Source: Planctomycetota bacterium
GTDB lineage: Bacteria > Planctomycetota > Phycisphaerae > Phycisphaerales > SM1A02
Direction of reading: 5' to 3'
Assembly: GCA_003671055.1 (NCBI GenBank)
Contig: QWPV01000021.1
Coordinates: forward strand, 1-40,243
Length of the DNA stretch: 40,243 bases
The notes under the pieces were generated by a model. It was given only the letters and a program-made list of their open reading frames with translations. It was not told the origin of the DNA and made no database searches. Of the stretch, positions 27,405 through 31,906 are shown piece by piece. A program made the translations under genes and the position numbers. The first letter of the stretch is position 1, and each line of letters starts with the position of its first letter.

Positions 27405-28874
27405 TTACCGGAGTAGTGCGAGCACATTCTGCGCGGTGGAGTTCGCAGTCGCGAGAACCGAGGTGCCTGCCTGCTGGAGGATCTGCGCACGACTGAGCAT
27501 CGCGCTCTCTTCAGCAAAGTCCGTATCGCGAATCTTTGACTCGCTTGCGGTGATGTTCTCGAAACCAATCTGCAAACTGCGTGAGTTCGTCTGCAATGTG
27601 TTGCGTTCGAATGCGCCGAGTCGACCGCGCATAACGGAGATCTCGGTCACTGCAGCATCAAGAATGCTGTTGGACTCTGCAGCTCGACCCTTTGTAAGCG
27701 CGTTCGTTTGACCGCTCTTGAGGCTGTCGAGGAAGTAGCGCGCATTCGAGATTGTCGTACCACCGATGCGGCTGGCTGCGACAGAGGTGATGCCAACACC
27801 AACTTGCTGCGTCGTCGTGATCGATGGCCCGAGCTGGAATGTTGCACCACCACCGACGAGATCGAAGGTGCTTGGATTGCCACTCACGGTCGTCGCGAAC
27901 GCTTGCGTGAGATCGAGGTCGAGGCTCAGAGCAGGCGTATTGAGACTGATACTCGTGCCGTTGCCGGTTGCGAGTGCACCGTTGATGATTGCCGTGACAT
28001 CGCGACCTGCGTCGCGTTGCGTGGCGTTTCCACCAGGAGTGGCATAGGTCTGCCAGAACGCGCCGCCCTGGCCGATACGACGCACCGAGACAAACTCGTC
28101 GCTACCGAAACTTGTGGAATTGAAGAAGAAGCCTGACGCTTGGTTGGCGCCGTTGGCGAGTTCCGCAGAAACGCCGGTCGTGTCCTTCACAGTGTTCACC
28201 GCAGCAACAACCGCGCTGAGTGCAGTGCCAGAAACGAACGAGAGGGTCTGCACGCCGAGGCTGCCTGCGATTTCAAGCGTGATGCTCGAAGCAAGTGTGC
28301 CGACGCCGCCGCTGAAGAAGAGCGCGCCAGTCTGTGCAGACTGCGTCACTTCCACGGCAACGCCGATGCTCGAATTGCCGCCGAACTGCACGCCGTGAAT
28401 ATTCGCGCCAGCGATTGCCGAAGGCGCAACACCGCTGGTGAGATATTCAAGCGAGCCGTTGAGCAATTGAAGTCCCGCGAAACTCGCGGTGTTCGAAATG
28501 CGTGTGATAGATTCGATCGCGCTATCAACCTGAAGTTGATTGGCGTCGATTTCCTCTTGCGAGATACCACCTGTGTTGGCAGTGGCGACGACGAGACTCT
28601 TGATGGAATTCAAGAGGTCTGCGACTTCGGCCAAGTAGCCTTCAGTGGTTGCGATCACTGAGCTTGCGCGTTCGGAGTTGTTGATGGCCTGCTGGATCCC
28701 CTTCATCTCGGAGCGCAAACGCTCAGAGACAATGAGACCTGCAGGATCATCAGCACCACGATTGATGCGAAGCCCAGTCGAGAGGCGCTGCAAACGAAGA
28801 CCGAGGTCTCCAGCGCTCTTGTTCAGGTTGCTGCGTGCGATGAGTGAGGGAACGTTGGTATTAATGCGAGCCAT
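27405..28874 (-). CDS. Flagellin 2
   Basis: 489 residues. N-terminal core MARINTNVPSLIARSNLNKS...LQRLSTGLRINRGADDPAGLIVSERLRSEMKG and C-terminal core SESKIRDTDFAEESAMLSRAQILQQAGTSVLATANSTAQNVLALLR are typical flagellin. It is a paralogue of flagellin 1, sharing most of the D0/D1 residues but with a different variable middle. It lies 33 bases after csrA in the same operon, with a strong AAGGAGG six bases before the ATG. The two flagellins may build different filament sections or be used under different conditions. Confidence 0.96.
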   Translation of the reverse strand: MARINTNVPSLIARSNLNKSAGDLGLRLQRLSTGLRINRGADDPAGLIVSERLRSEMKGIQQAINNSERASSVIATTEGYLAEVADLLNSIKSLVVATANTGGISQEEIDANQLQVDSAIESITRISNTASFAGLQLLNGSLEYLTSGVAPSAIAGANIHGVQFGGNSSIGVAVEVTQSAQTGALFFSGGVGTLASSITLEIAGSLGVQTLSFVSGTALSAVVAAVNTVKDTTGVSAELANGANQASGFFFNSTSFGSDEFVSVRRIGQGGAFWQTYATPGGNATQRDAGRDVTAIINGALATGNGTSISLNTPALSLDLDLTQAFATTVSGNPSTFDLVGGGATFQLGPSITTTQQVGVGITSVAASRIGGTTISNARYFLDSLKSGQTNALTKGRAAESNSILDAAVTEISVMRGRLGAFERNTLQTNSRSLQIGFENITASESKIRDTDFAEESAMLSRAQILQQAGTSVLATANSTAQNVLALLR

Positions 28875-28880
28875 GGCAAT

Positions 28881-28887
28881 CCTCCTT
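28881..28887 (-). promoter_or_regulatory. Strong Shine-Dalgarno site of flagellin 2
   Basis: AAGGAGG, six bases before the ATG, the best ribosome site in the window and containing GGA. CCTC four bases into the preceding linker could pair with GAGG here. CsrA, made from the gene just before, could compete with ribosomes at this site. Confidence 0.55.
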
Positions 28888-28907
28888 GACTGAGAGGCCC
28901 AGTGGAG

Positions 28908-29219
28908 TTACGCGATTTCGCGACGCTCCGGAGTTTTCGCCGCGAGCTTCGCGGCTGCAGGGAGGACCGTCCCACCTGCATTTTGATGCAAACCCTTACC
29001 TGCAAGACGCGGCCGAAGTGCGCCCAACTCACCGCGAAATGCTGCGGCTTGCTGATTCTCATTTCGAATCGCGTCGTAAACTTCTTTGCGATGCACCGCC
29101 ACATGCGCTGGTGCTTTGATTCCAATTCTGACCTTGTCACCACGAATGTCGACGATGGTCAGTTCGACGTCGTCTCCAATCATGATCGTCTCGTCACGCT
29201 GCCGTGAAAGTACTAACAT
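28908..29219 (-). CDS. csrA: Carbon storage regulator / flagellin translational repressor CsrA, extended
   Basis: 103 residues. The first 55 ([51 protein letters not shown]) are classic CsrA, with LSR near the start and GIKAP...VHR[K]E, which form the RNA-binding edges of the domain-swapped dimer. The remaining 48 residues (a Gln/Ala-rich helix and basic tail) are absent from E. coli CsrA (61). The gene is followed after 33 bases by flagellin 2 and preceded by fliW, the arrangement in which FliW binds and inhibits CsrA. AAGGAG precedes the start. Confidence 0.95.
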
Positions 29220-29334
29220 CGGCTGCGCTCCTTCCTAGTTCCGCACCGGTCAAGCCGTGCGGCGGGCGTCCGTGCCCAAGATCCATCCAAACCAACCTCC
29301 GGCGTCCGTGCCAAGAGGTAATGCATTCCAGTCC
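29220..29334 (-). promoter_or_regulatory. GGA-rich csrA leader with a direct repeat
   Basis: The 115 bases between fliW and csrA hold about eight GGA trinucleotides on the mRNA strand. A 16-17-base direct repeat (29265-29281 and 29301-29316) reads CTTGG[G]CACGGACGCC on the minus strand. Each copy carries GGA, and the second also contains TGGCACG (29307-29313), but without a proper -12 element. This is consistent with autoregulation by CsrA. It is inference from motif density. Confidence 0.45.
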
Positions 29335-29781
29335 TTACGCGGTCTGTGCCTGCACGCTCTCGTTGATCTTCACCAACTCGTAGCGGGTCGTCCAGCGCTT
29401 CTCCGCGAGCACGAGCTGCATCGAATTTCGATTGCGCGTGTTCACGATGATTGGCCCTTGAAGATTCGCAGTGAGCGAACCATCACGCTTGTTCACGATG
29501 ACGAGCACCTGCGCGTCATCGACTTCGTTCATAGAGAGTTCTGCCATCTGCTCTTTGCGGATCTGTGCCTGGTAGTCAGGGACCCACAGTGCAGGGTCGG
29601 TCACGACGAATGCGAGATCGGGTGATTCCGTCGACTGCAGCCAGAAGAACACGCCGTGCTCGTCAGGTTGCAAGAGTGCGAAGACGTGGTAGCTGCTAAA
29701 GCCTAAGAGGCCGGACTCAAAGTTCAAGAGTCGAGTCTCATCAACGTCTACTGTTCCGAATCGAGTCGTGTTGATCTGCAT
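29335..29781 (-). CDS. fliW: Flagellar assembly factor FliW
   Basis: I take the ATG at 29781, with GGAG eight bases before it; 148 residues from MQINTTRFGTVDVDETRLLNFESGLLGF. Typical FliW features: FGTV...LLNFESGLLGFSSYHVFALLQPDE, FFWLQSTESPDLAFVVTDP, ELVNEVD..AQVLVIVNKRD, LTANLQGPIIVNTRNRNSMQLVL. FliW binds either unassembled flagellin or CsrA; when flagellin is in excess it is released from CsrA control. It lies between flgL and csrA in one operon. The longer open frame (to 29871) has no coding signal. Confidence 0.93.
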   Translation of the reverse strand: MQINTTRFGTVDVDETRLLNFESGLLGFSSYHVFALLQPDEHGVFFWLQSTESPDLAFVVTDPALWVPDYQAQIRKEQMAELSMNEVDDAQVLVIVNKRDGSLTANLQGPIIVNTRNRNSMQLVLAEKRWTTRYELVKINESVQAQTA

Positions 29782-29818
29782 GTCAGTCGCTCCGGTCGGC
29801 CTAACCATTCCTTGGAGT

Positions 29819-29846
29819 CCGGCATCCTGCCGGCGGACCTCCGTCC
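29819..29846 (-). promoter_or_regulatory. Two tandem hairpins presenting GGA in the fliW leader
   Basis: On the mRNA strand the first to be read (29835-29846) is GGAC-GGAG-GTCC, a 4-base-pair stem with GGA in a four-base loop. The second (29819-29833) is CCGGCA-GGA-TGCCGG, a 6-base-pair stem closing exactly a GGA loop. CsrA recognises GGA in a hairpin loop. They lie 38-65 bases upstream of the fliW start, where the Shine-Dalgarno site again contains GGA. This strongly suggests that CsrA binds the leader of its own antagonist. Confidence 0.6.
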
Positions 29847-29886
29847 GAAAGATGCGCGTCGGGCCGTGCACCGCGCATCGCTAACA

Positions 29887-29905
29887 CTTGTGGACACCCC
29901 ACAAG
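29887..29905. promoter_or_regulatory. Perfect 7-base-pair hairpin between flgL and fliW
   Basis: CTTGTGG (29887-29893) pairs with CCACAAG (29899-29905). No T run follows on either strand, so it is not a typical terminator. It lies 19 bases after the flgL stop and may stabilise the flgL mRNA end or regulate read-through to fliW. Confidence 0.45.
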
Positions 29906-29923
29906 GAAAATCTGTATTCAGGT

Positions 29924-31906
29924 CTATCTCAGAAAGTCCAACAAACTCATACTCACTGCGCGGGAGGCACCAGCAAGACCGGCTTGCAACTGCTGCTGGA
30001 GCGACGCGAGTTGTGTCGCGGCGTCTGCGTAGTCAAGGTCTTGGATGCTCGAGCGAAGGCTCATGTCTTGAATCGAAAGTTCGGACTCTCTGCTCGCTGC
30101 GTCTACAACGCGTCGAGCTCGAACTCCGACGGACGCGCGCGCTTCTGCAGAACGCGTGAGGTCGGCTTCGAGCCGTTGAGTTGCAAAGGAGATGCCAGCC
30201 TCGTCATTGGCCAAAAGTGCATCTCGAAGGGTCATCAAGTGTGCAAATGCGCCGTCAACGGCAACGGTTGCGCGGTCGGTTCCCGCAAGAATCGCCGTAC
30301 TTGTGTCGCCCGCAATCCCCAACGCCTCGGCGGTGCCGGAGTTGTTGATCGAGGCCACGAAGGTCTTCGCACCTGGCGTGTTGTCGGTGAAGGAGATGCC
30401 GTTGCCATCGGCATTGAGGCTCGCGGAGAAGTCTGCGATGGAGACTCCAGCAGCGCTGGCGGCAGCCATCGTTAGAGAGAGGACATCCTCGACGGTGCTT
30501 GAAGTCCCGATGTCGACTTCAATTGTGCGACCATCTTTCAACGTGATGCGGAAGTCGCGATCTGCCGCGGGATCAGGCAGACCCGTGATGGCATCGACTG
30601 AACCACTCGACTGCTTCACGCCGCGACCATCCGCGAAGTCCGCGAGTTTCGTCGAGAGCGCGAAGGATCGAATACCAAGCTCGGTCGCAATCGTTCCACC
30701 GCCGACCTCTTCGATCGACATGTGGCCGCCAGACAGTTCGTTCTTCACATTGAGACGGCGACCATCTGGATCGATCTCGACACGCGCGCCAATATTCAGC
30801 GCTGCGACCGCGTTCTGAAATTCTTGCACGGTGTCGTACTGCGAGAGATTGAGTTCGCGTACCTGTCCGCCGTTGCGAATGCGAAGCGTGCCGCGCGGAC
30901 TCGTGAGACCGCTGAGCGAATCGAGGCTCGTGAGCGTCGTAAGGCGTGGGTCAAGATCTGCGCCAGTCGTGGTTGCGCCACCGACATATGTGCCGACGAG
31001 ACCGAGGTCCCCCGCTGCGCTCGCTTGGTTCGAGTCGCGGATTATCACGGTGTTTCCAGCACTTGGCGTGATAGCGAAGCGATCGCCAGTGGCTGGATCA
31101 ATCGTGGCGGTGGCGAGCGGATCGACGGTCTGCATCGCAGTCTGAATCGCGGCGCGAACATCTTCGACGCTGTCTGCATCGCCGAGATTGACAAGTACAG
31201 GCGTGCCGTTCACTTCAACTTCGATGGAACCCACGCGAATGCCAACGCCTGTTGCGCCACGCAAATCCGATAGACGCGTCGTCGCGGTCATCGATGGATC
31301 AAGATCGCGATCGCCGCGCACACGAGCGCTCAACGCGCCAAAGGCTTGTTCACCGGAGATCGTGAGACGAACATCCGACGCCAGCCCGAGGTCCGCGCGC
31401 ATGCCGAGACCTTCAGCGCGATATTGCAGTCCATTGAGGAGTGATCCGAAAGGTTCAGCACCGTGCGAATCGCCGCCGAAATAGTGGATGCCGCGCTGCT
31501 CACGATTCGCAATCTGCGAGAGCGACTGGATGAGCGAGTCGATCACCGCGGATTGATTCCGTCGCGTTGCCGCATCGCTACCGATGCCGATTTGTGAAAG
31601 CCCGATCCCTCGCGCTTCTTGAAGGATGTCGGTGACGTCACCGAGCGATGCATCAAGCGAGTTGAGGACGGCGTCGGCTTGCGCGAGATTGACTCCGCGC
31701 TGCGAACGGCGTTCGATCAAGTCATCGAGGACCGTGACACTGGATGCGCCAATGGCATTATCTGAAGGGCGCGTGAACTGCATGCCCGACGCGAGTTGCA
31801 CTTGCACCGCGAGGAGCCCGCGGTTGGAGCGTTGAATACCCCCAAGCGCAATTTGCGACGCCAAGAGGTTCGGTACACGCGCAAGATTTGCCGGATTTGG
31901 TCCCAT
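29924..31906 (-). CDS. flgL: Flagellar hook-filament junction protein FlgL, enlarged
   Basis: 660 residues, about twice the usual length. The N-terminus (VPNLLASQIALGGIQRSNRGLLAVQVQLASGMQFTRPSDNAIGASSV) and the C-terminus (DLTRSAEARASVGVRARRVVDAASRESELSIQDMSLRSSIQDLDYADAATQLASLQQQLQAGL) match FlgL. The middle carries inserted repeats with LTISGEQAFGALSARV and TLRIRNGGQVRELNLSQYDTVQEFQNAVAAL, of the flagellin hook-IN type also seen in other flagellar proteins. FlgL joins the hook to the filament. The start codon lies about 24 bases after a predicted sigma-54 transcription start. Confidence 0.9.
   Translation of the reverse strand: MGPNPANLARVPNLLASQIALGGIQRSNRGLLAVQVQLASGMQFTRPSDNAIGASSVTVLDDLIERRSQRGVNLAQADAVLNSLDASLGDVTDILQEARGIGLSQIGIGSDAATRRNQSAVIDSLIQSLSQIANREQRGIHYFGGDSHGAEPFGSLLNGLQYRAEGLGMRADLGLASDVRLTISGEQAFGALSARVRGDRDLDPSMTATTRLSDLRGATGVGIRVGSIEVEVNGTPVLVNLGDADSVEDVRAAIQTAMQTVDPLATATIDPATGDRFAITPSAGNTVIIRDSNQASAAGDLGLVGTYVGGATTTGADLDPRLTTLTSLDSLSGLTSPRGTLRIRNGGQVRELNLSQYDTVQEFQNAVAALNIGARVEIDPDGRRLNVKNELSGGHMSIEEVGGGTIATELGIRSFALSTKLADFADGRGVKQSSGSVDAITGLPDPAADRDFRITLKDGRTIEVDIGTSSTVEDVLSLTMAAASAAGVSIADFSASLNADGNGISFTDNTPGAKTFVASINNSGTAEALGIAGDTSTAILAGTDRATVAVDGAFAHLMTLRDALLANDEAGISFATQRLEADLTRSAEARASVGVRARRVVDAASRESELSIQDMSLRSSIQDLDYADAATQLASLQQQLQAGLAGASRAVSMSLLDFLR

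Follow-up and report, generated by a model that had tools for sequence, protein, structure and literature searches.

Analysis of the window, a stretch of 40,243 nucleotides that is one contig of a 2.85 Mb draft genome, revealed that fliW, csrA and flagellin genes are clustered on the minus strand, downstream of flgL. The nearest named relatives of its FliW belong to Phycisphaerales MAGs (Planctomycetota), with FliW identities of 96-97%. The genes of the locus are as follows.

31906-29924, minus strand: flgL
29335..29781, minus strand: fliW coding sequence, 148 aa, ATG at 29781-29779; PF02623 at 29374-29727 (E 9e-36); start aligned across relatives
28908..29219, minus strand: csrA coding sequence, 103 aa; PF02599 (E 5e-24)
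27405..28874, minus strand: flagellin gene 1, 3' of csrA; Flagellin_N (E 1.4e-30)
27064-25601, minus strand: flagellin gene 2

The order fliW followed by csrA was found in 54 of 55 loci from genomes of the order, and the gap between the two genes, 115 nt in the window, ranged from 28 to 211 nt in the relatives. The RNA-binding residues L4, R6, V42, R44 and E46 could be read off the CsrA sequence of the window, together with N55, the residue required for CsrA to be antagonised by FliW. A second, divergent csrA-like gene was noted near a MraZ-like gene (G000:C36:15157-15321; L065:2595-3032); its protein has a short internal insertion, N55 is absent at the position of FliW antagonism, and the product may be insensitive to FliW. 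In a genome of the same genus with an estimated completeness of 100% (G002), FliP was found and a FliW match was absent, either because the gene was lost or because the assembly has a gap there.

The region upstream of fliW carries a structured leader of about 100 nt, running from a 5' hairpin, P1, to the start codon.

29851..29879, minus strand: P1 hairpin GATGCGCG-(13-nt loop)-CGCGCATC, 5' end of the structured leader; RNAfold, covariation
29862..29866, minus strand: pseudoknot 5' strand CGGCC, inside the P1 loop, pairing with 29797-29801; covariation, permutation test (0/2000)
29834..29847, minus strand: H1, CGGAC-GGAG-GTCCG, the first stem of the earlier note; loop GGA in relatives, covariation
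29819..29833, minus strand: H2, CCGGCA-GGA-TGCCGG, the second stem of the earlier note; compensatory changes in sister lineages
29805..29815, minus strand: H3, CCA-AGGAA-TGG, a third GGA hairpin; loop GGA in relatives, covariation
29797..29801, minus strand: pseudoknot 3' strand GGCCG, following H3 and preceding the Shine-Dalgarno; covariation, permutation test
29789..29794, minus strand: Shine-Dalgarno CGGAGC, holding a fourth GGA (-12; 29793-29791)

An earlier note on this DNA, made from the sequence alone, had described two stems displaying GGA on the fliW mRNA and a GGA in the ribosome site. The sequence confirms both on the minus strand, H1 and H2 lying 38-65 nt 5' of the ATG (29781), and the minimum-energy fold calculated with RNAfold contains both stems. 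P1, the pseudoknot, H3 and the GGA hairpins of the csrA and flagellin leaders described below are additional to that note. The distance from the GGA of H3 to that of the Shine-Dalgarno is 18 nt in the window, with a median of 17 nt among relatives. RNAfold prefers, in the lineage of the window, a pairing of CUCC with the GGAG of the Shine-Dalgarno over H3; this alternative fold (29790-29817, minus strand), in which the CUCC lies just 5' of H3, would preclude both H3 and the pseudoknot.

CsrA is known to recognise GGA displayed in hairpin loops. The window leader contains two GGA hairpins with stems of at least 4 bp against 0.245 expected from shuffled sequences (P 0.02), and three with stems of at least 3 bp against 0.735 expected (P 0.04). 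The folding energy of the window leader alone was not significant (z-scores from +0.4 to -1.4), and two GGA hairpins within 60 nt occur at nine places, on either strand, in 425 kb of the genome, the fliW leader among them. By itself, the window leader is thus weak evidence, marginally above chance; what makes it convincing is that it is kept in relatives.

Leaders of fliW were gathered from 55 genomes of the order, and in most of these a common architecture was observed, consisting of P1, H1, a variable H2, H3, the motif GGCCGA and a GGAG Shine-Dalgarno. H1 is typically GGAC-AGGAN-GTCC and H3 is ACCA-AGGAN-TGGT or CC-AGGAN-GG. The structured leader was found in at least 111 relatives, and a GGA in the Shine-Dalgarno, between positions -17 and -7, in 107 of 113 leaders. 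Loop GGA was retained in H1 of 106 and in H3 of 96 of the 111 relatives. The earlier note had named lack of conservation as one finding that would undo its reading; this objection fails because the stems change compensatorily with GGA kept. In near relatives the second stem has the compensatory variants CCGGC-ATGGAT-GCCGG, CTGGC-ATGGAT-GCCAG and CCGAC-ATGGAT-GTCGG, all of which retain GGA. Of the three sites H2 is nevertheless the least universal: at least 51 of the 111 relatives have GGA in its loop. The MAFFT register, which matched the second stem of the window to H1 of the relatives, was rejected on the basis of the covariance model and the order of the elements; the register adopted takes GGAC-GGAG-GTCC as H1 and CCGGCA-GGA-TGCCGG as H2.

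A covariance model trained on nine leaders recovered most of the remaining ones, each match ending at the fliW start codon. With a second model, trained on 40 leaders, the window leader was the top match in its own genome (E 1.2e-8), and an annotation-blind search of whole genomes matched 43 of 397 sampled genomes of the class, 42 of them from the same order. All 23 inspected matches found by RNA only terminated at the fliW start (in one, L089, FliW begins MLQVQTTRFG and is one residue longer), and 72 of 80 FliW loci from named genomes gave a match at the fliW start with E < 0.1. Three other matches were set aside: one in the genome of the window (C17:11509-11629), antisense inside a glycosyltransferase gene and taken as chance; the sole match in another order (G290), within a hisF-like gene and likewise taken as chance; and one that sits inside another coding sequence (G028 C50). 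Comparison with Rfam 15 yielded no family at gathering score in the window and none at E <= 1 in the interval 29000-30000. Within the same order, the structured leader was absent from six loci that keep fliW-csrA (L016, L017, L021, L034, L056 and L057); the first four of these belong to one genus (g35), in which fliW, csrA and flagellin are all present.

Covariation was evident in both sets of leaders. In the 40-leader alignment 91.2% of the cells were paired and 203 cells carried changes in both partners, where shuffles gave 64 +- 6; in 71 leaders outside the training set 89.7% were paired and 450 had changed on both sides, against 151 +- 9, counts that lean to the model because P1, H1, H2 and H3 were fitted by it. 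All seven modelled pairs of P1 are altered on both sides among relatives. The pseudoknot lies outside the covariance model, and the test of its pairing runs is independent of column alignment. In 103 of 111 leaders the P1 loop region and the stretch that follows H3 have an uninterrupted run of five or more Watson-Crick pairs, the strand pairs including CGGCC/GGCCG, CGGTC/GACCG, CGATC/GATCG, TGGCC/GGCCA, CGGTT/AACCG, GGGCC/GGCCC and CGCCC/GGGCG. Among the 39 leaders without a GGCCG 3' strand, the mean run of a leader with its own partner was 5.92, against 3.94 +- 0.20 when partners were permuted, and none of 2000 permutations gave a value as high. The fliW leader is a conserved pseudoknotted RNA, and the comparison with relatives settles the reality of the observation.

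The leaders of csrA and flagellin also carry GGA hairpins in the window.

29301..29312, minus strand: csrA leader hairpin GGC-ACGGAC-GCC
29264..29277, minus strand: csrA leader hairpin GGGC-ACGGAC-GCCC
28877..28892, minus strand: flagellin leader hairpin CAGTC-AAGGAG-GATTG, whose loop contains the Shine-Dalgarno; one G-U pair

Related leaders covary, as in GACAAAC-AAGGAG-GTTTGTC of L048. Strict GGA hairpins, defined as NGGAN or NNGGAN loops closed by at least four Watson-Crick pairs, were counted per leader and compared with shuffled sequences. They numbered 1.10 per leader against 0.043 for fliW (n=113), 0.64 against 0.031 for csrA (n=112) and 0.54 against 0.024 for flagellin (n=74); for flgL, used as control, the values were 0.00 and 0.016 (n=79). 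The action of CsrA on fliW proposed in the earlier note is well supported by this comparison, in that the GGA stems covary, CsrA is encoded nearby, and similar hairpins precede csrA and flagellin and not flgL; flagellin is likewise a predicted CsrA target in the window.

The loops differ in class between the three genes. Those of fliW are mostly AGGAN pentaloops (66 with stems of at least 3 bp, against 0.77 expected), and those of csrA and flagellin are mostly ANGGAN, typically ACGGAY in csrA and, in flagellin, an AAGGAG loop that contains the Shine-Dalgarno; the ranking of these classes is borrowed from RsmE. Structures of RsmE showed that the recognised motif is A(N)GGAX, with loop classes ranked by affinity; omission of N from ANGGAX lowers the affinity 10-1000 fold, and a single AGGAN pentaloop belongs to the weaker class (PMC4005645). 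The SELEX consensus of E. coli CsrA is RUACARGGAUGU (PMC7652899), from which the H1 core ACAGGAUGU, found in many relatives, lacks only the R. The GGA hairpins of the csrA leader have loops of the higher-affinity class, and csrA is probably autorepressed.

We consider it probable that CsrA represses fliW, csrA and flagellin through the GGA sites of their leaders and that FliW relieves all three. This proposal builds on the observed structure and its conservation, the covariation, the GGA positions, the gene order and the CsrA residues, from which we infer CsrA binding, the order of affinities and the behaviour of the circuit. P1 and the pseudoknot would fold the fliW leader so that the loops of H1, H2 and H3 display GGA, the final pseudoknot strand being placed just 5' of the Shine-Dalgarno GGA. 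The spacing of about 17 nt between H3 and the Shine-Dalgarno is one that a CsrA dimer could bridge, as in glgC; a dimer bridging H3 (or H1 or H2) and the Shine-Dalgarno GGA would block ribosome loading and so repress fliW. We infer the sign of this regulation, repression, solely from anatomy, namely the distance to the Shine-Dalgarno. CsrA would likewise repress csrA and flagellin through the GGA hairpins of their leaders, and export of flagellin would free FliW, which would bind CsrA and relieve the three targets. Since the fliW loops are of the weaker class and those of csrA and flagellin of the stronger, fliW would be the last of the three genes to be shut off; repression of csrA itself would make the levels of FliW and CsrA move in step, and their proportion would be kept without a switch.

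The earlier note had gone further and proposed a double-negative loop, in which CsrA represses fliW, FliW inhibits CsrA and two stable states could result. Both arms are plausible, given the conserved CsrA-type sites 5' of fliW and N55 in CsrA, but csrA too is preceded by GGA hairpins, and their loops belong to the stronger class. In a toy model, 21% of the parameter sets gave three steady states when the fliW site was strong and csrA was not autorepressed, and 0.9% did so when csrA was autorepressed and fliW was the weaker target; the model omits the binding of FliW by flagellin and is a plausibility argument only. Because csrA is a predicted and apparently stronger CsrA target, stoichiometric homeostasis is favoured, and the simple bistable switch now appears quite unlikely. 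Another reading is that the leader mainly titrates CsrA, as a sponge, in the manner of the C. jejuni flaA leader. Each fliW transcript carries several GGA hairpins, and flaA mRNA is described as titrating CsrA (PMC4894983); the leader is, however, always placed at the fliW start with a fixed Shine-Dalgarno spacing, a constraint that would be superfluous for a sponge. Titration could occur as a side effect of the leader, and we give it little credence as the main function.

Activation of fliW by CsrA, through stabilisation of the mRNA or exposure of the ribosome site, is the opposite sign of regulation. CsrA can act positively on some mRNAs (PMC3856055), and the CUCC-GGAG pairing in the lineage of the window could mask the Shine-Dalgarno, in which case CsrA bound at H3 would unmask it. 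That pairing is not conserved, however, being only partly present in sister lineages, and a Shine-Dalgarno GGA about 17 nt from H3 suits bridging repression of the glgC type (PMC7652899), so that activation is unlikely. Alternatively, the leader might sense another protein, a metabolite or temperature, the GGA loops being incidental. The pseudoknot exceeds in elaboration the CsrA leaders known from the accessible literature, and no Rfam family accounts for the leader; against this, the loop GGA is almost invariant while the stems vary freely, and A(N)GGAN loops also stand 5' of csrA and flagellin, which encode the partners of FliW, and not 5' of flgL. A ligand other than CsrA is therefore very unlikely. 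Repression of all three genes by CsrA, with relief by FliW, is the reading we retain.

Compared with known systems, the locus resembles the Hag-FliW-CsrA switch of B. subtilis in the adjacency of fliW and csrA, in N55 of CsrA and in the flagellin-leader GGA at the Shine-Dalgarno, as in hag (PMC6529632, PMC7652899). In B. subtilis, however, fliW overlaps csrA and the translation of the two is coupled, which sets the FliW:CsrA ratio, and the described CsrA target is hag (PMC6529632, PMC7652899); in the window the two genes do not overlap, and each has its own leader with GGA hairpins. As they are 115 nt apart, shared control by CsrA could take the place of overlap and coupling in setting the ratio. 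Leaders of the E. coli glgC type are alike in combining an upstream hairpin-loop GGA with a Shine-Dalgarno GGA at bridging distance (PMC7652899), and differ from the fliW leader in its conserved pseudoknot, its three hairpins and a target gene that is CsrA's antagonist. Of the features of glgC- and hag-type targets, the fliW leader has at least two putative hairpin-loop GGA sites and a putative Shine-Dalgarno site within bridging distance, and the genome encodes a CsrA that has the RNA-binding residues; as to the high-affinity ANGGAX hexaloop, the fliW loops are mainly AGGAN pentaloops. The RsmZ/CsrB sponges likewise carry a series of A(N)GGAX stem-loops that differ in affinity by degrees (PMC4005645), but they are separate small RNAs, and the leader is part of the fliW mRNA and ends at its ribosome site. 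The CsrA-FliW system of C. jejuni is similar in its A-N-GGA loops, in the antagonism of CsrA by FliW and in flagellin as the main target, and differs in that the accessible parts of the sources do not name fliW among the targets of CsrA (PMC4894983, PMC6692469).

In the open-access literature searched, the FliW-CsrA system is one of CsrA acting on flagellin, and neither control of fliW by CsrA nor such a leader RNA was found described there, which does not in itself prove novelty. A leader controlled by CsrA is of a known kind; the pseudoknotted architecture and fliW as target appear to be new. What the comparison suggests is that, across an order of Planctomycetota, CsrA targets the gene of its own antagonist, fliW, by way of a structured RNA that Rfam lacks. 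If confirmed, this would close a feedback loop around CsrA activity, suggest how non-overlapping fliW and csrA keep their products proportionate, and provide a CsrA leader with a conserved pseudoknot. More tentatively, and with less than even confidence, we propose that the pseudoknotted leaders of Phycisphaerales form a new family of CsrA-binding RNAs, which would place FliW, CsrA and flagellin under CsrA via graded sites and keep the antagonist proportionate, much as in toxin-antitoxin autoregulation, the pseudoknot being integral to CsrA recognition or to the effect on the ribosome.

Several fliW leaders of another order of the class (L193, L195, L196 and L199) have neither P1 nor the pseudoknot and keep ACCAGGATGGT, and GGA hairpins are retained in several csrA leaders of that order; this suggests that CsrA control predates the pseudoknot. 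A hairpin GCC-A(N)GGAN-GGC was also observed at the start of fliO, the first gene of the fliOPQR export-apparatus set (L223 ~548-560, G000:C20; L233 and others), in the genome of the window and, among 30 relatives, in roughly every second one; some add GGGACAGGATGTCCC or a similar element, and fliO may be a further CsrA target.
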